Part shown: piece by piece, positions 279 through 53,388 of the stretch
Layout of the letters: every line of letters starts with the position of its first letter
Numbering within the stretch: the stretch's first letter is position 1
Program-made: the position numbers and the translations under genes
Notes under the pieces: model-generated
What the model was told of the DNA's origin: nothing
The model's database searches: none
The model's input: only the letters and a program-made list of their open reading frames with translations
NCBI GenBank assembly: GCA_028753945.1
Contig: JAPNXP010000002.1
Location: 5,456,001 to 5,520,000 of the forward strand
From: Hexactinellida sp. DTS-2022
Taxonomy: Eukaryota; Porifera; Hexactinellida
Direction of reading: 5' to 3'
DNA: 64,000 nt

Positions 279-2843
279 ATGGCCAGTCGAGATACTCTGT
301 ATAGACCGCCTTCCAGTAGTGACAGCGACGACACGCCACCCGAAACCACCTGCTCACAGATGAGCCTGTCCAGTGTGGGGTCTCCGATGACACCGTCCCT
401 CAGCCAATCCTTAGGGGACTTCACATTCGCGACACCGCCGCCAATACAATCTCCGTCGCTGCGAAATTATAAACCGAGGAGGAAAAGATCCCGATTCTAC
501 GGAAATCAATTCTCAATGAAGAAAGGGCTCTCTGCGAAGAAGTTGAGAGTCGGAACAACAACGCCCGAAACAATACACGTTCCGCATAGCTCTAAAGACA
601 CCGCAGCATCGCGAAAGTTGGACTTCCCGGATCACTCATTTCTACCTGCGATTCAAAATATCAGGGTCCGGAGTTCTGAAGGAAAAGTTGAGGAAGTAGA
701 TGTTCTTCCAGTGACAGGTAATGTTATTCTAAATGTCGAGTCTTTTGTTTCAATTCTAGGTGAAGTAGCTGTGTGCAGGAATTGTCAACTTGGTACATTA
801 GAGTTGTATCAGAAACCATACCACCTGTCCTGTGCCACGCAGCTCATGTTCCGCTGTAAACAGTGTCTTACCACCCGAACATTTTGGAGCGTGAGCGGCT
901 ACTTCAGGTCAAGTATTGAGCTCGGAGAGAAGAAGATATCCAGATGCAATGATATTATGTACAGCAGTGTCTTGGGAGGTCGACTTTGTGGAATTGGAGA
1001 ACCCAACCTCCGTTTGTACCACGCCTGCATGAACTTGCCACCGCCACCAACAGGTCCCTCCTTCCAAAGAATACAGAAAGATCTGCTAATTGCTAGCGAG
1101 TATGTTGCCAACAATACCATGATGCAAGCGAAGATCGGGTTAGAAACAATCCTTGGCATCAATCCCCTAACCAACTGTGTGCACAGTGTGGTCTCCTATG
1201 ACGGCGCCTACCAGATCAGGTCGAAGAAAGGCGGAGGAGGTTACAGCCCGTACTGCTTCGCTGCAGCTATTTCAGTAGACACCGCGAAGGTAGTAGCTTA
1301 TGATGTAGCGTGCAACATCTGCAGACAGTGCAACATGTATGCCAGTAAATTGAGAGATAACGAGATCACAGAAGAAGAACATCACAACTGGCATATTGAA
1401 CACAAAATCACTTGTCCTGCCAAATATTCTGAGTACGCGTCCGTTCACTTAGAATCACTCTTAGCGCCTCTCGTAGTACAACAGGCATATGACCGAGGAA
1501 TAATATTCAGTGGGGTAGTTTCTGACGGGGACAATAAGACAGATGCAGCACTGAAGGATGCAGATATTTATAACAGCTTGGGATTTGACTTGGAGATCGG
1601 GAGACTGGAGTGTCTTAGTCATGTCCTAAAGAGGATGAAGACCAACCTGTGTAAGAAACAAGAAGTGGTGCTGAAAGATGCGAGAACTTCAAAGAAAGTC
1701 TATACTAAAGAGCTGATAAAGAAAGGCAAGAGTAAGAAAGAGGCTGCTAAATTACTATCAAAGGATTAGCAGGGAAGTCTACGAAGAGTTTCAAAGAGCA
1801 GGGAAAGTTGGAAGAGTTCTGAGACACCCGTTGAAATCAAACATCTTTCTGAAGCGATGTGCGGGCAGATAGCAAGCTATTATCGTCTTGCTGTACAACG
1901 GAACAAGGGAGACACCGACGCCATAATAAAGGCAGTGAAAGCTATACCTTACCACCTAGGGGCTAACGACATCAACGCAGTAGAATACCACCGATACTGC
2001 CCCTTTGAACAAGACAGCTGGTGCCAGTACCAATCGGCAATATTTGACAAGAAGCCTCCTCCCCACCATCCTAATTATCTATCTGAGGAGGCTGTAAACA
2101 TTGTGTTGGAACTCTATGAAGAATTCAAGCTGACCACACCGGAGTTCATAGACAAAATAAAATCTTCCCTGACTTCCAATAACAATGAAGCAATTCACAG
2201 CGTGCTCTTTGACATTGTACCAAAGAAAGAAAACAATGGCAATGAACTGATGAGATTGGGAGCTGCACTCTCTGTCATACTATTCAACGAGGGATATCAA
2301 GGAATCAAGAGAGTATTCGAGACATGCGGAATAACACCTGGGGACTATTTGTCGGAGACCTTTAGCAATCTTGATAAGGAGAGAATAGTTCGTAGTGCAA
2401 ATATCCTCCTTAGTCAACAGCGAAAGTTTGCCAAAAAGCAGCGAAGGGGAAAGAAAGTGAAGAGCCAGATTAGATGACATGGGTTAGGCTATGACTCCGG
2501 GAAGTACACATCAGCACAACCTGATTTAGAGACCGAAGCTGAAGATGTAACACCTGCCCCGACATCAAGCACAGCACCCCATACTGATGTAAACACAGAC
2601 AGTAATGAAGAAGACCGTCAATCTCCAATAACAACATTAGCTGAAGAAGAATCTGACATCTGTGAGATCTGTGGTTATACCGAGGATGAAGGTCTTGTAG
2701 GTATCGGACTCGGTATACCTTTGCCACCCGAAGATTTACTATGGGTACAATGCGAAGACTGTGCGAAGTGGTATCACCTCCTGTGCCTGGGAATGGAAAA
2801 GGAAGATCTGCCAGCAGGTGACTGGAGATGTGGTAAGTGTTAG
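279..2843 (+). pseudogene. K1 Kolobok-like DDE transposase with PHD finger, two in-frame stops
   Basis: One reading frame runs from the ATG at 279 to the TAG at 2841-2843 (854 codons). It is broken only by a TAG at 1767-1769 and a TGA at 2475-2477. The order of parts is a Ser/Pro-rich N-terminus, a CxxC...CxxC zinc ribbon, the catalytic Asp in VSYDGAY (D308), SDGDNK (D416/D418), CLSH (the CxxH motif, C445/H448), the probable catalytic Glu in NNNEAIH (E637), a basic tail, and a C4HC3-type PHD finger from about C795 to C854. This is the Mutator-like transposase domain layout. Paralogues at 23973-27069 and 43009-45480 share every landmark. Both stops could come from CAG or CGA by one C-to-T change, so the copy looks recently inactivated. 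It is Kolobok-like by analogy with K3, whose TTAA duplication is visible. Readthrough of the stops cannot be excluded. Confidence 0.85.
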
Positions 2844-3252
2844 TTCAGTATATGTATATGTTTAGTGTAGTATTGTAACAAAAAAAAACAAAAAAATTAT
2901 TATAAAACAAAAACACACACAAAAAATAACTAAAAATTGAAATTCATAAAAAAAAATACTTATATAAACCTTAGAATGTATTATTCAGTGTTTCTTCATT
3001 AGTATAGTCTAATTAGTTCCTAAATAATATAAACTTCTCCGTATTGTCAATCATTTCCTCCCTTTCACTTATCAGTTTATTTTTATCAATTTATTTATTC
3101 TTATATATATTCATGCTATTTTCTATAGATATTTATCTATTTCATTTATCCTATTATTCATTAGATTGTTGTATTTATATTCATTAAATTATTATAAATG
3201 TTAGTAACTACATTTTTCGTGTTTGTATTTGTGTACGTATGTCTTGTCTTTC
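2844..3252 (+). other. K1 3' untranslated-like AT-rich stretch
   Basis: Very AT-rich with A-runs near 2880-2950 and no ORF. I see no AATAAA between the stop codon and the ribozyme at 3253; the first clear one follows it, near 3713. Confidence 0.4.
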
Positions 3253-3310
3253 TCTAGGTATAGTTCTAATCTGAACTACTGATGAGACTTATGGAGAGTC
3301 GAAACCTAGA
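3253..3310 (+). ncRNA. Hammerhead ribozyme, type III topology, 3' of K1
   Basis: All parts of a hammerhead are present in order. Helix III is TCTAGG (3253-3258) with CCTAGA (3305-3310). U16.1 is T3259 paired with A3304. The cleavage nucleotide is A3260, giving triplet GUA with the cut after 3260. Helix I is TAGTTC/GAACTA (6 bp, 6-nt loop). The core CTGATGA is at 3279-3285. Helix II is GACT/AGTC (4 bp, 7-nt loop), followed by GAAA at 3301-3304. No core base deviates from the consensus. It lies about 410 bp after the K1 transposase stop and on the same strand. Activity is inferred, not shown. Confidence 0.88.
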
Positions 3311-3439
3311 AAATTTTATAATATTGCTTTTAAATAATTGAATACACCCTCTAGAAAACGTTAGAATTGATTTAAACATCAAAACAATTATTTAAAAATT
3401 TTTTATTTTTATATTTTTCAAATTATTTTGTTTTGACAG

Positions 3440-39837: not shown

Positions 39838-40961
39838 GGTGTCCACGCATGGAAATATTTCGGAAATCACCTTAAAAACTTGACATAATCCGATTTTTCT
39901 TTTTTGGGCCTAGCAATTCAAAACGACAATATCTAACATTCGTACATGGTTTTGAGACTTTTACAAACGTATTTTCTTAGTTATGATCTATTTTGGACAG
40001 CGGTTCACTGGTTTCACCACTTAGATCGATCCAAGTACTCTATATCTCAACAATGGTATGAATGGTGGTATCATTACTCTATCCAAGCAATAACTGACGA
40101 AAATAATTAACAATTGAGGCCTCTGATCCCCTGGCTCAGGAAAAGTTACATTCGCTCGTTAGTTTATTCCACTAAACCTTACATGTTACCTATTATTTAA
40201 GACAAAGTTTGACTCTCTAGCTAAAATACTTTCCGAGTTACAGCAAGGTATGTGAATATGGAACTAAATGACGTGCTATTATTATGTAACACTAAATGAG
40301 ATTTTAGTGTAAACAAAATTCTAAAAGAAATTTGAGTAGTTATCAATGCGATGTTAATGCCTATATAGTTTGTAGTAGCTACTAGCATGGGGGCAATGAA
40401 CAGCATTTTTTAATCTAGTGTTTACTTTCAATATTGTGGCAATGACTATTCGGAATTTTCTTGAATGCAGAAAATTCCGACTAGTCATCGCTTCAGTATT
40501 GAAAGTAAACATCATATCAAAAAATGCTGTTCATCGCCCCCATGCTCGTACTTAGTACTAACTATATAGGCATTAACATCGCATTGATAACTGCCCAAAT
40601 TTCTTTTAGAACTTTGTTTACAGTAAAATCTCAATTAGTGTTACATAATAATAGCACGTCATTTAGTTCCATATTCACATACCTTGCTGTAACTCGGAAA
40701 GTATTTTAGCTAGAGAGTCAAACTTTGTCTTAAATAATAGGTAACATGTAAGGGTTTAGTGGAATAAACTAACGAGCGAATGTAACTTTTCCTGAGCCAG
40801 GGGATCAGAGGCCTCAATTGTTAATTATTTTCGTCAGTTATTGCTTGGATAGAGTAATGATACCACCATTCATACCATTGTTGAGATATAGAGTACTTGG
40901 ATCGATCTAAGTGGTGATTGAGTTGAATTATATTAATCGTAGACTCCTGTGCGTGGACACC
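39838..40961. mobile_element. Inverted-repeat element carrying the large foldback
   Basis: Ends GGTGTCCACGCA / TGCGTGGACACC with GTTATG on both sides (39832-39837, 40962-40967). 1124 bp. Superfamily unknown. Confidence 0.65.
40014..40917. repeat. Large foldback palindrome, family F copy 1
   Basis: Arms of about 440 bp start TCACCACTTAGATCGATCCA and end TTGGATCGATCTAAGTGGTG. They meet at a short centre near 40440-40490 (TTCGGAATTTTC...AAAATTCCGA). The mirrored 61-residue frames at 40221-40406 and 40524-40709 are artefacts of the palindrome. Confidence 0.92.
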
Positions 40962-42188: not shown

Positions 42189-42794
42189 TTAAGGAAGCTG
42201 AACGCGAAATCCTATTAGGTACTATGGGTAGTTTCTACAGTTTTATTCAATTAATGTTAAATCACTATAAACATAAAATCTATGACCCTAACTAAGATAT
42301 TTAGTACTTGAGAGCATTTCTGAGAATTCTATTTTTGGCATGCTATAAGAAAATGTGTGCATTGGCTTCCCATTGACGTAATACAATAGAATCAAAACCT
42401 TTCGAGGAATTCCAGCAAAAACTGTTGGGGCGTAAGTTCTAAAAATTATACTGTATATTCATCATCACTAGCAATAGAAAATTGACCTTGACTGGAACTG
42501 TAGCGCACTTACTTTCCATTCTGGAATTATTTATGCCCTGTTTTGTCAAAATGGGGTCAAATTTGGACAATTTTGCCTTGAAACGAGTTAAATATACAGG
42601 AAGAAATTGTTGGATCTCTACAATCAAGGTCAAATTTATTAGTTATAGTGTATAGAAGGATATCTGAAAGTTTTAACTAATTCCACTCATTAAGTTTTGA
42701 CATAAAACCTCCCAAAGTCTAAAAAACCGTGTTTTGAGAAACAAGCGTTCAAAGTTTTTTCGATTAATCTCAGCAAATATACATACAAATCTAT

Positions 42795-42851
42795 TGGTGT
42801 TTCATCCCGGTAAGGACTCATCAGTTAAGCTACCATTCGCTTAATACACCA
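42795..42851 (-). ncRNA. Hammerhead ribozyme, type III topology, 3' of K3 transposase
   Basis: On the minus strand in order: helix III TGGTG/CACCA; U16.1 (42846) paired with A15.1 (42800); cleavage nucleotide A at 42845 (triplet GUA); helix I TTAAGC/GCTTAA (6 bp, 8-nt loop); core CTGATGA (42824-42818); helix II GTCC/GGAT (4 bp, its core-proximal pair a G-U wobble, 6-nt loop); GAAA (42803-42800). It lies about 160 bp after the transposase stop and on the same strand. The layout is the same as at 3253-3310, but the loops and stems differ in sequence. Confidence 0.85.
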
Positions 42852-42941
42852 CCTATGTTTTGAGAGATTTGCATAAAAAAATCAATCAAAAGGCGTGATA
42901 ATCAAAGTTCAGGACAAGTGTCCGTCATGGTGATTATCAAA

Positions 42942-43008: not shown

Positions 43009-45480
43009 TCATGAACAGTTATAACATCTATAATCAATGGTACTCACGTCCTGGTCATCATCTAATTCCGTGCAGCACTGGTGGAACCAGCGGTCACAGT
43101 CGTCACATCCTACCCATTGGACCGTTGCTTTCCCATAGATTGTTCGGTGTGTTTGTGGCGGTGGTTGACGTCTTTCACAGATGTCGCAAACCCCATCGGA
43201 ACTTCCACTAGCTGTGGAAACATCTGATTCGTTGGAGGACTCGGAGGTGTCAGCTGGGATCAGGCGGCGTTTGACTCCCTTTCCTCGGGTCGATGGTGAT
43301 TTTCCCCTGCCTCTGCCTCGCGCTCGAGATCTAGTAGGAATCGTCTTGGGTGGTCTCGGGGTAACTTCTGAACCGAAAGAGCTTGACTTATAACTGCGTC
43401 CACCTTCAGCTCGGAGTAGGTCTCGTTCTCGGCGTTCTCTCATCAATCTTTGTCTGCGTGTCCGGCGATCGATGTTCTTCTTGCGGGTGTCAGTAAGATG
43501 CTGTCTCCTGGTTTCCACCCGTGAGCAAAGCGACCTAAAAGATGAATAGGAAGGATTTAGATTTAGTTCGGACAACAAACCATATAGACTCAGTTCGCCG
43601 TCATTGCAGATGGTAACAGCGATTGATGTACTGATTCGCACGCTTTGAGGCGAGATGTATTTCGATTTTGGACAAAAGTTCCAGATCATGTTATGGAGAG
43701 ACTCGTTCGCGTTTTGAGTCATTCCTAATGTCAGGTGTTTACAGAACTCTTCAGTGGCAAAAGTGGCGAATACTTCTCTAACTTTTGAGATATCTTGCGA
43801 GGTATAGTTAGTAGTCTTCGCAGGTATTGGTTGGGAAGCAGTAGAAGTATTTCTCCATCTGCACCAAGATTCAGCAGGGCAGGTGTCGTGTTTTCCGCTT
43901 ACGTGGGACAAAAGGATATCAAGTCCATTAGCCATTTGTGAAGGTGTTTTTCCACGGTGCTGTAGGATCACTGTCGAGAAGTTGGAGGATATGTATTCAG
44001 CTTTAGGCTCGGGTAACTTGTGTTGGATATAACTTTGGGCCTTTGTGTTTTTCTTTATCTTGCAAAGGGATTTCTTGAGGCGTTTGGACACGTGCGCAAG
44101 ACATTCCTCTTTGTGTATGGGTACTAGTGGATAGGGATCCATGGTAACGACTTGATGGTATGACTTGGAATCCCCGTCTCCAATGAAGGTGGAATAACAG
44201 AGCTGGTGTTTAGCAACTGATCGATTCCAAATAAGCTTGGCTGCGTGCGGTTCCATTGCCTGACTCGATCCGCTGAAGTTCTTGAAGCAGTTGTGCTTGT
44301 GGCTTTCGTACCACCGTTGGTAGACCTCTGGATTTTCCTGTTGGCGTTTACTGCTCCATCGATTGCACTTCTCACAGATACGATTTAGGAGTGCGTAATC
44401 GAGAACTTTCTTGCTGGTGGCAGAGATTGCAGAACCGAAACCCAAGTTGGAATAGAATCCGCGCGTCTTCCAAGAACTGTCGAAACTGACTGCTATGTTG
44501 ATGCAATTAGGTACTGCAGATGGTATTGCGGCGACCTTGAAGTGAAGTTCTTTAGCGGCAGCGTCCATACTGCTTTGGCAAGCGAATTCCACAGTGCGCT
44601 CGATCTTATCCAAATAACGTGGTGGCATGTGAGCAAGTGGAGGCGGCATGTCAAAGATCGTGGCAAATTTGTGAAGATCACGCCATGAGAATCCAGAACA
44701 ATGAACGGCGAACACAGATCTCATAGTGACTTGGTTCATTGCTCGGGGAGACTCCTGAACATTCACAAAGCTCGACTGAGGAGGTACATCCATGGGCTTA
44801 GAAGAAGGGAATTCTGCGTATAGTTGGTGGCAGGTATCGCATTTGATGGAGTAGGTTGTTTGCCATCCGTGAGTATAATCTGATTCATAAATCGATAGAG
44901 GGGAGGAGCAATTATTACATCTCAGTTTCCCAATTGCTTCACCGAGAATCCCAATATCGAGAATGCGCATTCCTGTTGGTTTTGCAGCGCGTTTTGTCGT
45001 TATGCAACCTTCTGGAGTCCTGAACTCAACGTGGCGTTTCTTAGATGGCTGTGGAGTTGTAAAATGAGTGCAGTATCCTCGTTTCTGGAGTCTGAACGCT
45101 GGATGTTTGCGCTTTAGAGGTGTTGTTTGAATTGAAGACTGGGAGGAGCTGAGTAGTGGGGATTTGGATCGGAATTGGTTGCCGTGGAATTTCCTTCCCT
45201 TTTTGGGACGTCCGCTAGGTTTCATGGTGGGAGTATAGGACGTTTCGGCGAAGAATATTGATGGTTGGGAAGAAGAAACGTCTAGGCTCGCCATCGGAGA
45301 GGTTAGTGCAGGAGTAGTGGACTGGGAGGAGACGGGAGAATAGATTGGGGAGGACAGAGGAATCTCGATGTCGGAGTGGGAGGAGCGTTCATGTTCGGTG
45401 CAACTATCACCGTGCTCCCACATGCGGTTAGGTTCCTCTGAACCTTCGCTTTCTGAGGAAGAAGAATAGGCCGAAGCCAT
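43009..45480 (-). CDS. K3 Kolobok-like DDE transposase with PHD finger, intact
   Basis: A single 823-residue frame from ATG at 45480. It has a Ser-rich N-terminus, a basic KPSGRPKKGRK segment, a zinc ribbon (C188, C191, C214, C217), and the catalytic set D334 (VSFDSSW), D435/D437 (GDGDSK), CxxH C460/H463 (CLAH) and E593 (ANESLHNM). An Arg-rich stretch is followed by a complete C4HC3 PHD finger (C765, C768, C792, C795, H800, C803, C819, C822). The enzyme should cut and paste the element at TTAA. The DDE-with-CxxH fold belongs to the Mutator clan; the TTAA duplication points to Kolobok rather than piggyBac. A TATA box lies about 100 bp upstream. No frame break is seen, so this is the best candidate for an active source copy. 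Confidence 0.9.
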   Translation of the reverse strand: MASAYSSSSESEGSEEPNRMWEHGDSCTEHERSSHSDIEIPLSSPIYSPVSSQSTTPALTSPMASLDVSSSQPSIFFAETSYTPTMKPSGRPKKGRKFHGNQFRSKSPLLSSSQSSIQTTPLKRKHPAFRLQKRGYCTHFTTPQPSKKRHVEFRTPEGCITTKRAAKPTGMRILDIGILGEAIGKLRCNNCSSPLSIYESDYTHGWQTTYSIKCDTCHQLYAEFPSSKPMDVPPQSSFVNVQESPRAMNQVTMRSVFAVHCSGFSWRDLHKFATIFDMPPPLAHMPPRYLDKIERTVEFACQSSMDAAAKELHFKVAAIPSAVPNCINIAVSFDSSWKTRGFYSNLGFGSAISATSKKVLDYALLNRICEKCNRWSSKRQQENPEVYQRWYESHKHNCFKNFSGSSQAMEPHAAKLIWNRSVAKHQLCYSTFIGDGDSKSYHQVVTMDPYPLVPIHKEECLAHVSKRLKKSLCKIKKNTKAQSYIQHKLPEPKAEYISSNFSTVILQHRGKTPSQMANGLDILLSHVSGKHDTCPAESWCRWRNTSTASQPIPAKTTNYTSQDISKVREVFATFATEEFCKHLTLGMTQNANESLHNMIWNFCPKSKYISPQSVRISTSIAVTICNDGELSLYGLLSELNLNPSYSSFRSLCSRVETRRQHLTDTRKKNIDRRTRRQRLMRERRERDLLRAEGGRSYKSSSFGSEVTPRPPKTIPTRSRARGRGRGKSPSTRGKGVKRRLIPADTSESSNESDVSTASGSSDGVCDICERRQPPPQTHRTIYGKATVQWVGCDDCDRWFHQCCTELDDDQDVSTIDYRCYNCS

Positions 45481-45845: not shown

Positions 45846-46125
45846 TTAAAATATATAATAATCCGATTCTGATACTTGAATGCTATATATATATAATGAA
45901 ATTTTTTTTAAACCATAGAATATTGTAAAATATCTCCATATTTGGTCATTTCAATAAAAATGACGTCACTAAATGGCCTCAGGGAAGTTCCTAGAAATCT
46001 GATTTTTGGAAAATTACACTTCTAGGTTAAAATTATGCTATTGAACTACAACATGGAGGCATAAACTCGATTTCCATTGTTAACATTAAATTCACCATAT
46101 TTTCGCGTTCAGCATCCTTAACCAA

Positions 46126-47120: not shown

Positions 47121-49172
47121 CTAGAAATTTTCACAAACGAACATAGGAGTTCGTCTCCCTTAATCAAACTTCTGAAATGCATAGAAGGACTGAATGATTT
47201 AATTATTTCAATGAAATCATATTATTATTATTGGGTATTATTGAAACACGATTTTCAATATCGATTATTTTGAGTATTATTCTAAACTTTGATTATACTC
47301 TTGCTTGACACCTCTCAGAGGGCCGATGTGAGTTATATTTTACGATAAACTTTTCAATTTTTTCATTTGTTGATCAAGAGGAGCTTTCCATTTTAGTATT
47401 CCTGCAGCGCCTCGAAAGGGTGGCAAGATAAGAAGGTTAGCAACTACCGATACTTGTTCTCATTTTATCTTTTACGCTCACAAATATTACTATAGTCAGG
47501 GTTAGTTATTTTACTCTCAGGTGACCGAAAATATTGTGTTTATATTTCAAAGACTTCCCAATAAGGAAGTGGACTATCCCATTGGGACCAGAGGGTTAGT
47601 TCAAAATACACCAGTGTTCATAATGAGCGACTCTGATTATAATTGAAGTGACGGTTTGTTCCTTTTAAAAAATCTAAAATTACCACTCTTCCGACCATGT
47701 TTCGTTATTTATGCAGCAAAATTATCCTGCCTCCATAATATAAATTTAGTATCACTTAGTCTGCACACTGCAATTTTATTTTTTGTGCATGTCATTTTGG
47801 TAAAGATATAGTGGACGTAGTAATTAACTAGCTAAACAAGGTATTAAATTAGAATATACCAAAGCGTTTGGGCAACAGTTAAATTTAATGAGTATTCAGT
47901 CAGGGGGTCGCGTAATATCAATTCGCATTTTGATCAAAATTTCCTTGCTAACAGCGAATTTGCTATTGATGAAGGGAATTAAATTAAACTATTTTGGAAC
48001 TGAAAGTAACTTCCAAATAACATAACTTATTAATTAATTAATTAAGCGAACTCAATTGTACGCGTACGTCTCAATTAACCCAGGTAAATTATAATTGGAC
48101 CTGATAACCTATTAACTCTTTAGATTCTTCCACAGCCCTCCCCAACCTAAATCAAAAAAGGGTAATTGATTGTATTTATAATATAATTCTCCAGTCTTCT
48201 ACATATATTTTCTTGATTGTGTTAGCACTTAGCAGGATATAGAATTTGACACGGCTAAATTATAAATATCTTATATATTAAATCGCGAGGGTTTTTTGTT
48301 TGTTTGTTCGGAATTGATTGAGGAACATGTAAAACCACATACTTGAAATTTGGCAGAGGGGGGGGTGAATAGTTTATCTGGGAACATGTTCTAATATCTA
48401 AGAAAAATATTCATATCTTCTCTCCCTAAAGATGAGAAAAACTTTAGCCAATTAAATTCGAGGGTTTTCCAGTATGGATTAGCAGCTAGCATTCAATTAG
48501 TTAAAAGGATTTAGTGTCTCTATCGATTGTTAAGGAGTGTAAAACATTTTCTTCGCGTTTTGGGCTTGCAAATACTATTTTGATGTTTTTTACAAGTGTT
48601 TGGTTAAAGAAATTTCAGGGTTTTGAGTTCACGTATTTTGCTACCTATAGGTATCATTTGTAATTGATTTCTATTTACCCATCTTTTAAATAATCTTTTA
48701 GTCACGAGAGAACTTTTCAAAGATTACCTAAGTACATTTTAATTCACAAAAAAATTTGAAGCTTTGCAGCTTGCAGGAATTTAGACACTATGAGATTTTT
48801 GTTTAAGCAAATTGCGTTTCTTAATTATTTGAGCTTCACTATAATTTAATCGACTATTACTCAACATTTTTAATACACTTCTATATACATTTCCAATTGT
48901 GTACAAAACTATTCATTTACTTTTGTATGATTAAATTTGTGAAATTATGAAAATATACATTTAACATAAAAAACAACAAGCAACTAAGACAGATATTCTC
49001 TAAACCGTATTTCCCCGAAAAAGCACCTGGGCTTAAAAAAGCGCCGGCTGTATAAAAATGGTATCTGTATGTTAAAATTTATTCCCAATAAATGATAACT
49101 GCAATTGAATTGTTGTGATTTAGGGAATTATAGGATGTTTAATCTCGCTGGGTACCAATTGATTTCACCTAA
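47121..49172. other. Composite middle, right part
   Basis: No gene seen. 48440-48540 is a diverged copy of 38680-38770 (TCCAGTATGGATTAGCAG), and a scrap at 49005-49060 resembles 41290-41330. Confidence 0.5.
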
Positions 49173-49570
49173 GGATGCTGAACGCGAAATCCTATTAGGT
49201 ACTATGGGTAGTTTCTACAGTTTTATTAAATTAATGTTAAATCACTAAAAACATAAGATCTATGACCCTAACTAAGATATTTAGTACTTGAGTGCATTTC
49301 TGAGAATTCTATTTTTGGCATTCTATAAGAAAATGTGTGCATTGGCTTCCCATTGACGTAATACAATAGAATCAAAACTTTTCGAGCAATTCCAATGAAA
49401 CTGTTAGGGCGTAAGTTCTAAAAATTATATTGTATATTCATCATTACTAGGAATAAAAAATTGACCTCGACTGGAACTGTAGCGCACTGACATTCTATTC
49501 TGGAATTATCTACACCTTGTTTTGTCAAAATAGGGTCAAATTTTGACAATTTTACCTTGAAAATAGTTTC

Positions 49571-50823
49571 GGATGCTTGCTTCGGAATTCTGAGGAATTT
49601 ATCAACAAAGTGAAATTTCGAGATTAGTGTGAAATATATTACAACTATATCATGGAATTATCCTGGAATTGAAAATTTTCAAAAATAAGTACTCCATTCC
49701 CTACAGGGGGCATTTTAGTGACGTCATTATTGATGTTTTGGCAATTAAATGAATATATATATACATTTTTTCATATTTATTGACATTTATTTACGTGTTT
49801 TATATTCTATATCCCATTTATATGGAATATAATACATTTTATATTATTTAGAAGTACCAGTAGTTCAGTTGGTAGCATATCGGAACAGTATACAAGTGTT
49901 CCTGGGTTCGATGCCCAAACCTGGCTTATCTTTTTGTCAATCAACTATAATATGATAAACCCATAAGCTTTATTCATATAATCTTATACAGTATGGACTA
50001 TATATATTTAACCAAAGGTAAACAGACATGTATAATGACAACAATAACAATTTCAGATAATTATTTTATTACATTTTGCTTTAAAATGTGTCCCAAAAGA
50101 ACGTGGACTGCTATAAACTCTTCCAATTCATGCCAAAAACTACATATTATTCAAAATACAATGTTAAAAACTATCTTCGAGTATTATATTAGTCTATACT
50201 AAGGATACTATTACATAATACACATTTGATTCGTGCATATTAGCTAGAATATTTCCGATAATCTTTAACTTTAATTTACTCAAAACGGGATTTATTGACA
50301 AACGATGGATTGTTTAATGTTGAAGTACTGAAGCAAACATTCCAAAAATACCAGGCTTATATATATATGGTATAAACTTTATTTTGCAAGCACTTTGGAC
50401 ATAATGAACAATTGGTGTATGTGCTACATGGGGAAGAAGGTGAAAAATGTCAATTTTTGACCTTTTTTGACAATTTCTGTTGCATCAAATAAAAGAATAT
50501 GTTCTAAACATTTTTTAAGTCTGAAGTGCTTGCATAATTTAGTACTTGTAGTAATGATTAATCACTGTAATTCTTGGAGTTACACCTATCATATTTCAAG
50601 TAGAAAGAATTCAGTCAATTCTGATGCTACAGTGTTACTGACATGGGAAGCCAAAGTTCAAGTTATTCAATAGCATGCCAAAAATAGATCTAAGCAAGTT
50701 TTTGAAGTTTGCTTATAATCTTAGTTGGTGAATTACAATTTATGTTTCACCACTAACAATTCACTTTTCACATTATTGGTGAAACTACCCATACCCCTAA
50801 AACACTTTTCGAAGCAAGCATCC
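49571..50823. mobile_element. TTAA MITE related to K3, nested in the deleted copy
   Basis: Ends GGATGCTTGCTTCGGAA / TTTTCGAAGCAAGCATCC, 1253 bp, TTTC on the left (decayed) and TTAA on the right (50824-50827). The empty site is intact in K3 near 42588. Its right interior (50635-50700) resembles the K3 left interior in reverse, so it is a distant K3 relative. Carries a tRNA-like sequence. Confidence 0.8.
49854..49925 (+). ncRNA. tRNA-like sequence in the nested K3 relative
   Basis: 72 nt with A box (TAGTTCAGTTGGTAGC), a 6-bp stem GGAACA/TGTTCC at the anticodon arm, and B box (GGGTTCGATGCCC). Acceptor pairing is incomplete, so it is probably not a functional tRNA. Confidence 0.6.
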
Positions 50824-51024
50824 TTAAATAAACAGGAAGAAATTGTTGGATCTTCACAATCAAGGTCAAATTTATTAGTTATAGTGTATAGAAGGATATC
50901 TGAAAGTTTTAACTAATTTCGCTCTATAACCTTTGACATAAAATCTCCCAAAGTCTGAAAAACCGTGTTTTGAGAAACAAGCGTTCAAAGTTTCTTTGAT
51001 TATTCCCAGTCATTATACATGCAA

Positions 51025-51070
51025 ATCGCTTGTTTTTCCATCCTAGTAGGTACTCATCTGAGTCGTTGAA
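51025..51070 (-). pseudogene. Decayed hammerhead ribozyme
   Basis: Aligns with 42795-42851, but the core has degraded (CAGATGAG for CTGATGA region, GGAAAAAC after helix II) and helix I is lost. Unlikely to cleave. Confidence 0.6.
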
Positions 51071-51833
51071 TGACTCGGAGGTATCATGCAACGATCATGC
51101 GGCGTTTAACTTCCTTTCCAATGCGTGCTGGTAAATTCTCTGCCTCCCCCCTCCCTACAGTCGGGATCTGGTTGGCATCGTCGTGGGTGGTCTAGGGGTA
51201 AACTTCTAAGCCACAGTAGGTTTGGGGATATAACTGCTACCTCCCTTCATCCAGGAGAAGGTCTCGTTCTACCCGTCCACTCTATCAGTCTTTATCGGAG
51301 TGTCCGACTATGGATGTTCTTCTTGCTAGAGCCTCAAAGCGTTGTCCAATAGTCTCAACGTGGCATTTCTTGAATTGTAGTAGAATATATATCGGTTTCA
51401 ATATCTCCGTGAATTGACTTTGAACGAATGTTGCTTACACCTGAGAGGTGTCGTTTCAATTGAAGAATGTGAGGAACTGATTAGGGGGATGTGCATCGTT
51501 TGCCATCAAATGTCTGGGTCTTTTTGGAAACTCCTACAAGGAAGGAGGATAGGAAGATTCGTGGAAGAAGATATTCGCTTGAGAAGAAAAATGTCTATGC
51601 TCGAAGGGGAGTTGTTAGTCAAGAAGTGGGCTGTGAAGATACGGGTGAGAGGCTCGGGGAAAACACGGGTGAAAGGATCAGGAAGACATGGGTGAAAGAA
51701 TCGGGGAAGACTGATGAACCTCGATGTCGGGATGATAGGAGTGTTCATCAAACTATGTGCAACTATCACAATGTGCCCACATTCGGTTGGGTTCCTGAGA
51801 ATTGTCTCTTGCTGAGTAATAAGCCGAAGACAT
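51062..51833 (-). pseudogene. Deleted remnant of the K3 transposase
   Basis: 51062-51358 corresponds to the C-terminal coding region 43215-43510 of K3, and 51359-51833 to its N-terminal 45027-45480. The catalytic core between them is gone. Many frameshifts remain. The small plus-strand frames over this span are shadows. Confidence 0.8.
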
Positions 51834-52148
51834 ATGCTAATAATCTAATGATCTACATATGTTTTTTGGAGAAATATTACACAATATTGTTGTAAAAGAA
51901 ATATCTAGGTTTGAAGTCGAAATGTGAAATTCCTATAATCCTGGAATTTATATTTTTCAAACTATTGCTCGAGCCTAGTTGTTTGATGATTTGTACACTA
52001 ATAATCATAATTAATATGCAGTTTGACAACCGCAAAAATGTTTACCCAATACAATGTTGTAAACAGTATCGCCGGAAGTATCAAGATATGAGCAAGTGAT
52101 GTAATCACTTGATAAGCTAATTGACAAAAAAATAGGATAAAAAGAATT

Positions 52149-52219
52149 GGTAGGACTGGGGTTCGAACCCGGGCTGCGCGCTCGCCTGGCCAGTTCGCTA
52201 CCCAAACGTCCACCAGGAC
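52149..52219 (-). ncRNA. tRNA-like sequence in the K3-derived copy
   Basis: Nearly identical to 45775-45845; the B box is conserved while the neighbouring transposase has decayed. Confidence 0.6.
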
Positions 52220-52457
52220 TTAAAATTTATAATAATCTGGTTCTGATACTTGAATGCTATATATATATGAGGAAAACTTTATAAAAGTATAAAATATTGT
52301 AAAAAATCTCCATATTTGGTCATTTCAATAAAAATGACGTCACTAAATAGCCTCAGGGAAGGTCCTAGAAATGTGATTTTTGGAAAATTGCACTTCTAGG
52401 TTAAAATTATGTTCTTGAACTACAACATAGCAGCATAAACTCGTTTTCCATTGTTAA

Positions 52458-53346
52458 GGCTCGACCCACACCTTCAGAACTATTAGTCCCTTCAGATCCA
52501 AACTTATATCAGATTTAGCCATATCTATGCTGATAATAAATCCGCAATCGAAATTGAATTCGAACAATATTCGCTCGAATGATTGTGTATAGTTCCATAT
52601 TACGTAATATTAAATTCCTATACCTGACCTAAAATATGTGCGCCGTACTAAAAAAAAATTCACAGAAGTTTAAGTGTTGATTATTCCTTGTTTATTCAAT
52701 ACATATACATAGCTAAGCTGCAGACTATTAGTTGATCGTTTCATAAGCTTACTAATATTTTTCAATGTGTCAAAGTCAAAACAAGCTATTTGAATGATGA
52801 TTATTGCATTTTTCTGATTTAAAGAATTACAACAATTTGAAAAAGTATCATAATCGTCTAATTATAGTTTGCAGCTTAGCTATGCATATGTATTGAATAA
52901 ACAAGGAATAATCAACACTTAAACTTTTGTGAATTTTTATTTATCACGGCGCATGTTGGGCTGGGTTTGTACTTTGTTGAAGAATATCTGTTTATTTATA
53001 TTGTAATACTATTTTCCTATATATATACACTTCATTCAGTAGGAATCTTATATAGTGGTTATATAACAATGTTAACTAAGTATTATGCATTGGTTTTATC
53101 TTAAGTTATGTAGTATTCAGCAATACAAATTAGATAATTCCGCTATAAATTATGACGAAATCCCCCCCAATTTTTGTATTACGTCAGTGGCGCAAAGTGG
53201 CGCAAGTTGGTATATTTCCTAAAGTATTTGGAATTTCTTGATGAAAATTTCTGTGAATATACCCCATCTATAGAGCATGCGGAATATGCAATAATGTACA
53301 TTTAATCAATGGTCTGGGCCTCCGTCCTGAAGGTGTGGGTCGAGCC
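52458..53346. mobile_element. B-family TTAA element
   Basis: Ends GGCTCGACCCACACCTTCA / TGAAGGTGTGGGTCGAGCC, 889 bp, TTAA at 52454-52457 and 53347-53350. The empty site is seen in K3 near 46079 (TTGTTAACATTAAA). Confidence 0.92.
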
Positions 53347-53388
53347 TTAACATAAAATTCACCATATTTTCGCGTACAGCATCCTTAA

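Follow-up and report, generated by a model that had tools for sequence, protein, structure and literature searches.

A type III hammerhead ribozyme behind a Kolobok-type transposase gene is apparently kept by selection and probably helps to shape the transposase message

The 64,000-nt stretch of the Hexactinellida sp. DTS-2022 genome analysed here (the window) contains a transposon, K3, whose transposase gene is followed, in its 3' UTR and on the same strand, by a compact type III hammerhead ribozyme. Judged from sequence comparisons, the maintenance of this ribozyme by selection is well supported, and it probably helps to shape the transposase message. A second hammerhead, belonging to another element of the window (K1), occupies the same place. 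The positions of the features discussed below are listed in Table 1.

Table 1. Features of elements K3 and K1 in the window
Feature	Position	Strand	Basis or remark
K3: TTAA target site and 17-nt terminal inverted repeat GGAAGCTGAACGCGAAA	42189..42209	+	
K3: first AATAAA past the stop codon	42635..42640	-	155 nt downstream of the ribozyme
K3: type III hammerhead ribozyme	42795..42851	-	fold, descriptor scan, covariation
K3: predicted cleavage site, triplet GUA	between A 42845 and U 42844	-	sequence and fold
K3: predicted 3' UTR hairpin 2, conserved	42896..42939	-	four copies aligned
K3: predicted 3' UTR hairpin 1, conserved, with U-rich loop	42940..42996	-	four copies aligned
K3: transposase ORF, 823 aa, PF20700 and C-terminal PHD finger	43009..45480	-	Pfam; D, D, CxxH and E motifs by eye
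K3: TTAA target site and 17-nt terminal inverted repeat GGATGCTGAACGCGAAA	46101..46121	-	
K1: transposase region in several frames (ORFs 279-1769 and 1857-2477, PHD-like part to 2843)	279..2843	+	
K1: hammerhead, topology as in K3, other helix sequences	3253..3310	+	descriptor scan, copy comparison

By its sequence, K3 is a Kolobok-type DNA transposon. The element is 3.93 kb long, is bordered by a 4-bp TTAA target site duplication (42189-42192 and 46118-46121) and has 17-nt inverted repeats (GGAWGCTGAACGCGAAA) with 5'-GG...CC termini, i.e. of the RR...YY form. The duplication was also found around copy L011 (contig C15), which matches K3 at 99.4% identity over 3.9 kb between TTAA ends of its own and carries the same ribozyme, its transposase match being divided between two frames. 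The only Pfam domains of the K3 ORF are PF20700 (E 1.3e-53; named Mutator-like in Pfam) and a PHD finger scoring slightly under the Pfam cut-off; the reverse transcriptase expected of a Penelope-like element is absent. A string search located SFDSSWK, GDGDSK, CLAH and NANESLHN, in which the catalytic residues of a DDE transposase with C/DxxH were assigned by eye. The assignment to Kolobok follows from the TTAA duplications and 5'-RR termini, as described for this superfamily in passages of PMC9587614, and K3 also shares the DDE transposase with CxxH, which is listed with these two features in passages of PMC9587614 and PMC6004289. The word "ribozyme" does not occur in the main text of either Kolobok paper. 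In the genome searched (112.4 Mb, 18 contigs), contig C11 is rich in transposons and holds 29 of the 55 K3-like transposase matches, though it makes up 14% of the assembly. The window itself contains a degenerate K3-like copy (49170-53388), with insertions and a deletion running through ribozyme and transposase, and, beside K3, an inverted repeat of 288 nt (93%) arranged around a 7-nt centre (40174-40756). Searches of viral contigs by protein and by one DNA pattern gave no relative, while a protein search listed 43 homologous proteins, the best of them 83% identical.

The K3 motif has the CUGANGA (here CUGAUGA) and GAAA core amid three helices, with helix III open, as in a type III hammerhead. 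Helices III (UGGUGU/ACACCA) and I (UUAAGC/GCUUAA) are each of 6 bp, helix II (GUCC/GGAU) is of 4 bp including one G.U pair (a fifth pair, U.G, is added by the folding program), and the GUA triplet is of the cleavable NUH kind. The motif begins 158 nt past the transposase stop, which places the predicted cut 164 nt past it. The hammerhead is the minimum free energy fold of the isolated motif, and also when 50, 150 or 300 nt are added on each side (up to 657 nt in all), its fold energy by itself being unremarkable (z = -1.5; 13 of 200 shuffles were equally good). A covariance-model score, which the original prediction had proposed as a check, gave a match to Rfam Hammerhead_3 (RF00008), at 19.3 bits and thus under the gathering score of 48.5, so that the motif lies below the curated family and would not be called by Rfam. 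At gathering score Rfam had no match in the 64-kb window; at E up to 10, Hammerhead_3 was reported for K3 only when 1 kb was supplied. Scanned on both strands with a descriptor, the window yielded exactly two type III motifs, those of K3 and K1, and no type I hammerhead, while 12 of 300 first-order resampled windows contained one type III motif and none of the 300 more than one. From sequence, then, the case that the K3 motif is better than chance rests on the core with its three helices, and further on conservation and covariation. Taken with the modelled fold, these data confirm a complete type III hammerhead that is predicted to be self-cleaving. Type III hammerheads with a loop I-loop II pseudoknot have been described in passages of PMC3088659; the K3 motif differs from them in scoring below Rfam gathering and in lying in the transposase 3' UTR of a DNA transposon. 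The proposal of a hammerhead in an intact element was borne out, as the motif, the TTAA ends and the open transposase ORF are all present. The stated likeness to K1 holds as well: both ribozymes share topology and GUA triplet and lie on the transposase strand 3' of the stop, with differing helix sequences and similar sizes of helices III/I/II (6/6/4 in K3, 7/6/4 in K1).

The main evidence for selection comes from diverged copies. The transposases of K3 and L009 are identical at 532 of 817 amino acids (65%), and agreement at four-fold sites (35/143, 0.245) is at chance level, meaning that synonymous sites are saturated; the ribozymes nevertheless agree at 54 of 57 positions (0.947). By segment, identity is 0.646 in the CDS and 0.771 between stop and ribozyme, and the high conservation drops at the ribozyme 3' end, with 0.552 in the first 100 nt after it, then 0.460 and 0.485. 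In the pair K3/L038 the ribozyme (50/57) likewise exceeds its flanks (0.666). Ribozyme identity was matched by none of 391 non-overlapping 57-nt 3' UTR windows in either pair. The L037 fragment, in which 56 of 57 ribozyme positions are kept, is uninformative on selection because 16 of 391 other windows reach that identity. A 29-base K3 pattern with up to 3 mismatches occurs at 8 places in the genome (3 exact; the reversed pattern at none), and inspection covered these except C11:5218636 and C11:7805670. Some of the similarity could stem from elements having swapped their 3' UTRs, as in the K1/P-type case described below.

Changes in related sequences tend to preserve the structure. In six K3-type rows, 89.9% of cells are paired, compared with 84.5% in shuffles and 29-40% in slid structures, and two-sided changes occur at four pairs. 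When ten broken relatives are included (17 rows; the dispersed-repeat hammerheads L013, L050 and L051 are kept in the structure counts as ribozyme relatives), the value is 74.9% against 68.7% in shuffles, paired cells amounting to 93% in helix I, 90% in helix II, 82% in the loop-loop pairs and 42% in helix III, the last because the ribozyme-only relatives have lost this helix. Two-sided changes affect pairs 10-25, 11-24 and 35-48 and the loop-loop pair 20-41, which is UA in 7 rows, GC in 6, CG in 2 and unpaired in 2. Covariation at this pair and the complementarity GGUA/UACC point to a predicted contact between loops I and II. The observed covariation score and number of cells changed on both sides were reached by 0 of 500 shuffles in both the 6-row and the 17-row set, fractions that are not probabilities since the rows are kin to each other; a tally of the pairs in which any two-sided change occurs shows no excess (reached by 118 and 148 of 500 shuffles). 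Helix III provided no informative paired change in the six K3-type rows. The compensatory changes anticipated by the original prediction are thus seen in helices I and II and in the loop pair, but not at the base of helix II in L009, where a U.U mismatch stands uncompensated. Helix II of L009 did not form natively in any of 3 contexts folded, nor did helix III of L038 in either of 2, which may mean a weak or decayed ribozyme in both copies.

A parallel case is provided by K1, for which the window copy and nine other places were compared. Five of the ten (K1, L029, L030, L033 and L036) pass the descriptor with an unchanged core, L031 and L057 retain the ribozyme with one damaging change each, and it is absent from L032, L034 and L035 within the stretches fetched. 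In L033, GUA has become GUC, still a cleavable triplet. Ribozyme identity is 56/58 for K1/L030, 55/58 for K1/L031 and 56/58 for K1/L036, with flanks at 0.651, 0.666 and 0.608, respectively; none of 690 other windows reaches it in any of these pairs (binomial odds 8e-9, 3e-7 and 2e-10). L029, L033 and L057 are too similar to K1 overall to be informative on selection (111, 39 and 170 of 690 windows reach ribozyme identity). Covariation in 12 K1-type rows was reached by 32 of 500 shuffles, as the helices hardly vary. The original suggestion of selection is therefore upheld in both lineages, by K3/L009 (54/57 in the ribozyme, 65% in the CDS, 46-55% downstream) and by K1/L030 and K1/L036 (flanks of 65% and 61%).

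The K1 3' UTR, from 2849 or 2861 to 3336 and including the ribozyme, recurs with about 81% identity at five loci (L058-L062) on contigs C16, C14, C11 and C1, where the DNA directly upstream is common to the five and differs from K1. The ribozyme core is unchanged in four of them (L058-L061) and has one change in L062. At the only one read further upstream (L068/L058), ORFs broken in several frames encode THAP and TNP-like RNase H domains, the latter being linked to P elements. In the single copy read, the element sharing the K1 3' UTR thus carries a P-type transposase with a K1-like 3' UTR and ribozyme behind it, which suggests transfer of a 3' UTR cassette between Kolobok and P-type elements, two superfamilies of transposons. 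A further repeat family carries the K1-type hammerhead together with 33-45 nt of GU-rich upstream sequence (L063, intact; L064, damaged); among the five matching repeats that are neither K1 nor P-type (L063-L067), only L063 passes the descriptor.

The K3 ribozyme has relatives outside transposase genes. It is 75% identical over 53 nt to the ribozyme carried by a roughly 220-nt dispersed repeat, which ends about 25 nt past this K3-related hammerhead (L050, L051 and L013:6450-6690; 40 matches on 13 of 18 contigs). Because K1 and K3 helix sequences differ, K3 resembles the dispersed-repeat ribozyme and the K1 ribozyme recurs in another element, sequence comparison supports at least two recruitments of a hammerhead by Kolobok lineages, followed by its retention by selection, and the repeated recruitment named in the original prediction agrees with this. 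Ten ribozyme-only relatives, 81-87% similar to the K3 ribozyme, keep helices I and II, and all ten are without helix III and a cleavable triplet. The two read upstream (L040 and L048) showed no similarity to the K3 transposase in about 1.5 kb and share a repeat beginning about 340 nt ahead of the ribozyme core; they are, from sequence, short derivatives without a transposase, and as such would not need a ribozyme-shaped mRNA. The ten matches start sharply at the cleavage site (query 36-37), but the idea that this is a trace of cleaved RNA was dropped, as in L040 the K3 sequence seems to run on upstream, the 5' arm of helix III being lost (by eye). In the wider genome at least 64 hammerheads score above Rfam gathering, among 68 places listed that do not include the K3 ribozyme. 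Three loci fetched (L054, L055 and L056) belong to another hammerhead family (GUGGUC...), and L055 has two hammerheads 315 nt apart in a retrozyme-like arrangement; type III retrozyme-like elements would be unusual in an animal-like genome.

The ribozyme is not, on sequence evidence, a general Kolobok component. Among the 20 larger loci (L009-L028), a K3-type ribozyme lies in the UTR only in L009 (by alignment) and L011, and 14 have no sense-strand hammerhead, including L010, an open 807-aa relative with 66% identity. L012-L015 have a hammerhead farther from the transposase (1.7-2.1 kb behind it), which was dropped as a candidate Kolobok part because it belongs to the dispersed repeat. No hammerhead was found at any of 16 more distant K1-like transposase places (L069-L084; 1.7 kb around and past the expected stop), a scan that a strongly changed ribozyme would escape and in which the protein end is not clearly in view for L073, L077, L079, L082, L083 and L084. 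The original view of the ribozyme as a working part of these transposons is partly supported, selection being seen in the K3 and K1 lineages and the ribozyme being missing from these more distant places. K3 copies lacking the motif, which that prediction had named as counter-evidence, do exist in part: besides L010 and the ten relatives without helix III, the second K3-like copy in the window is, like L045, a ribozyme wreck.

The layout of the 3' UTR bears on the possible function. The K3 stretch between stop and ribozyme is free of AATAAA, of ATTAAA and of the four variants looked for, and in L009 AATAAA occurs only 3' of the ribozyme. The order of poly(A) signals varies among copies, as L038 has AATAAA 22 nt 5' of the ribozyme and another 3' of it, and K1 has ATTAAA (3183) 70 nt 5' and AATAAA 3'; L037 has neither hexamer in the available stretch. 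The two predicted hairpins between stop and ribozyme keep most of their pairs in four copies, and 3 of 38 predicted pairs change on both sides while staying paired, the covariation term being small (-0.69 of -28.3 kcal/mol).

The reading that we prefer, and whose chances we judge to be about even, is that the transposase mRNA carries the K3 ribozyme as a selected part acting in cis, whose cut makes the 3' end of the message. The transcript would fold into the hammerhead and cut itself between 42845 and 42844, parting the coding message from the remaining transcript, including the first poly(A) signal. The product would be a transposase mRNA with a ribozyme-made 3' end, bearing a 2',3'-cyclic phosphate and no poly(A) tail, and expression would thereby become independent of host 3' processing and bounded in amount. 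We infer that such cleavage takes place in the animal and that the cut serves as the working 3' end, which the two hairpins may back or protect. The reading draws on the absence of a hexamer before the K3 ribozyme, on the hairpins and on conservation ending at the ribozyme 3' end. It also agrees with a sense-strand hammerhead that is intact and folds natively in long context, with an identity peak on the ribozyme where four-fold sites are saturated, with paired changes whose score no shuffle reaches and a pairing that collapses in slid structures, with the cleavable GUC of L033, with hexamers placed exclusively after the ribozyme in K3 and L009, and with the breakage of helix III and cleavage triplet in all ten ribozyme-only relatives, of which L040 and L048 have no K3-type transposase. 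Against it stand the hexamers preceding the ribozyme in L038 and K1, the helices that do not form in L009 (with its U.U) and L038, the open L010 without a hammerhead, and the number of pairs with any two-sided change, which is not above shuffles.

The same anatomy, with a cut between the stop and the first AATAAA in K3, would also suit a brake, in which most of the transposase mRNA, deprived of its poly(A) tail, becomes unstable and transposition stays low enough to be survivable for the host, an uncut minority being the working message. Hammerheads inserted in a 3' UTR lower expression, and the ribozyme is lost in ribozyme-only relatives, both in line with a brake; yet it would give a copy no advantage over a ribozyme-less mutant, while the ribozyme has been held beyond synonymous saturation, and it leaves the conserved hairpins just upstream unexplained, so we regard it as unlikely, though a serious competitor. 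The K1 ATTAAA and GU-rich stretch just before the ribozyme (33-45 nt of which are kept in L063 and L064) and the AATAAA ahead of the L038 ribozyme would fit a role in termination, the ribozyme behind a poly(A) site cutting nascent RNA so that transcription stops before the element end and host DNA; the hexamer-free stretch of K3 makes this improbable. It is very improbable that the motif is a DNA-level site resembling a hammerhead (e.g. for subterminal transposase binding) or the inert remnant of a hammerhead repeat that inserted there: the ribozyme-only relatives stay similar without helix III and the dispersed repeat carries a related ribozyme, but two-sided changes affect helices and loop pair, K1 has the same catalytic core in the same place with other helix sequences, and conservation falls at the ribozyme 3' end. 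Least probable of all are the release of a useful RNA from downstream of the cut and a role in marking elements copied via circular RNA like retrozymes; Rfam-grade hammerheads do exist in this genome, including the pair in L055, but K3 has a single ribozyme and the sequence after it is not conserved.

Among known systems, the Clec2 genes of mammals come close, with a discontinuous hammerhead in their 3' UTR: according to passages of PMC6155905 this hammerhead too is a type III ribozyme behind a coding region, with a proposed effect on polyadenylation, but it belongs to a host gene and has a helix I of 150-1500 nt, whereas K3 carries a compact 57-nt motif in a transposon. Mobile elements with hammerheads include retrozymes and metazoan hammerhead retroelements, which PMC7229834 and PMC4918200 describe as non-autonomous, with dimeric or tandem hammerheads and spread through RNA. 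K3, a coding TTAA element with its own transposase and one ribozyme, differs from these and lacks the two or more hammerheads in non-coding repeats by which retrozymes are recognised. Penelope-like elements and Terminons also combine mobility with hammerheads, but are, from passages of PMC7229834 and PMC6155905, retrotransposons with minimal type I variants. In the open full-text literature, which leaves most subscription papers and preprints outside, no paper combined a hammerhead ribozyme with Kolobok, and titles and abstract openings of the papers listed contained no report of a hammerhead in a DNA transposon.

In the parts of the literature seen, hammerheads in mobile elements have so far been tied to kinds that are copied through RNA (retrozymes, Penelope-like elements). 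In the present case, an apparently selected hammerhead lies in the 3' UTR of a transposase whose substrate is DNA, and a second one, unlike in sequence, is found in the corresponding position both in another lineage and in an additional element. The K3 ribozyme offers a concrete short RNA with which the effects of genomic hammerheads on mRNA (3'-end formation, dosage and termination) may be tested, and in the K1/P-type case a non-coding RNA cassette would have crossed from one transposon superfamily to another. It is possible, although on balance we doubt it, that some cut-and-paste transposons end their transposase mRNA by a ribozyme and not by polyadenylation, using a portable 3' UTR cassette of stabilising hairpins and hammerhead that would have been acquired at least twice by Kolobok lineages and shared with a P-type element.
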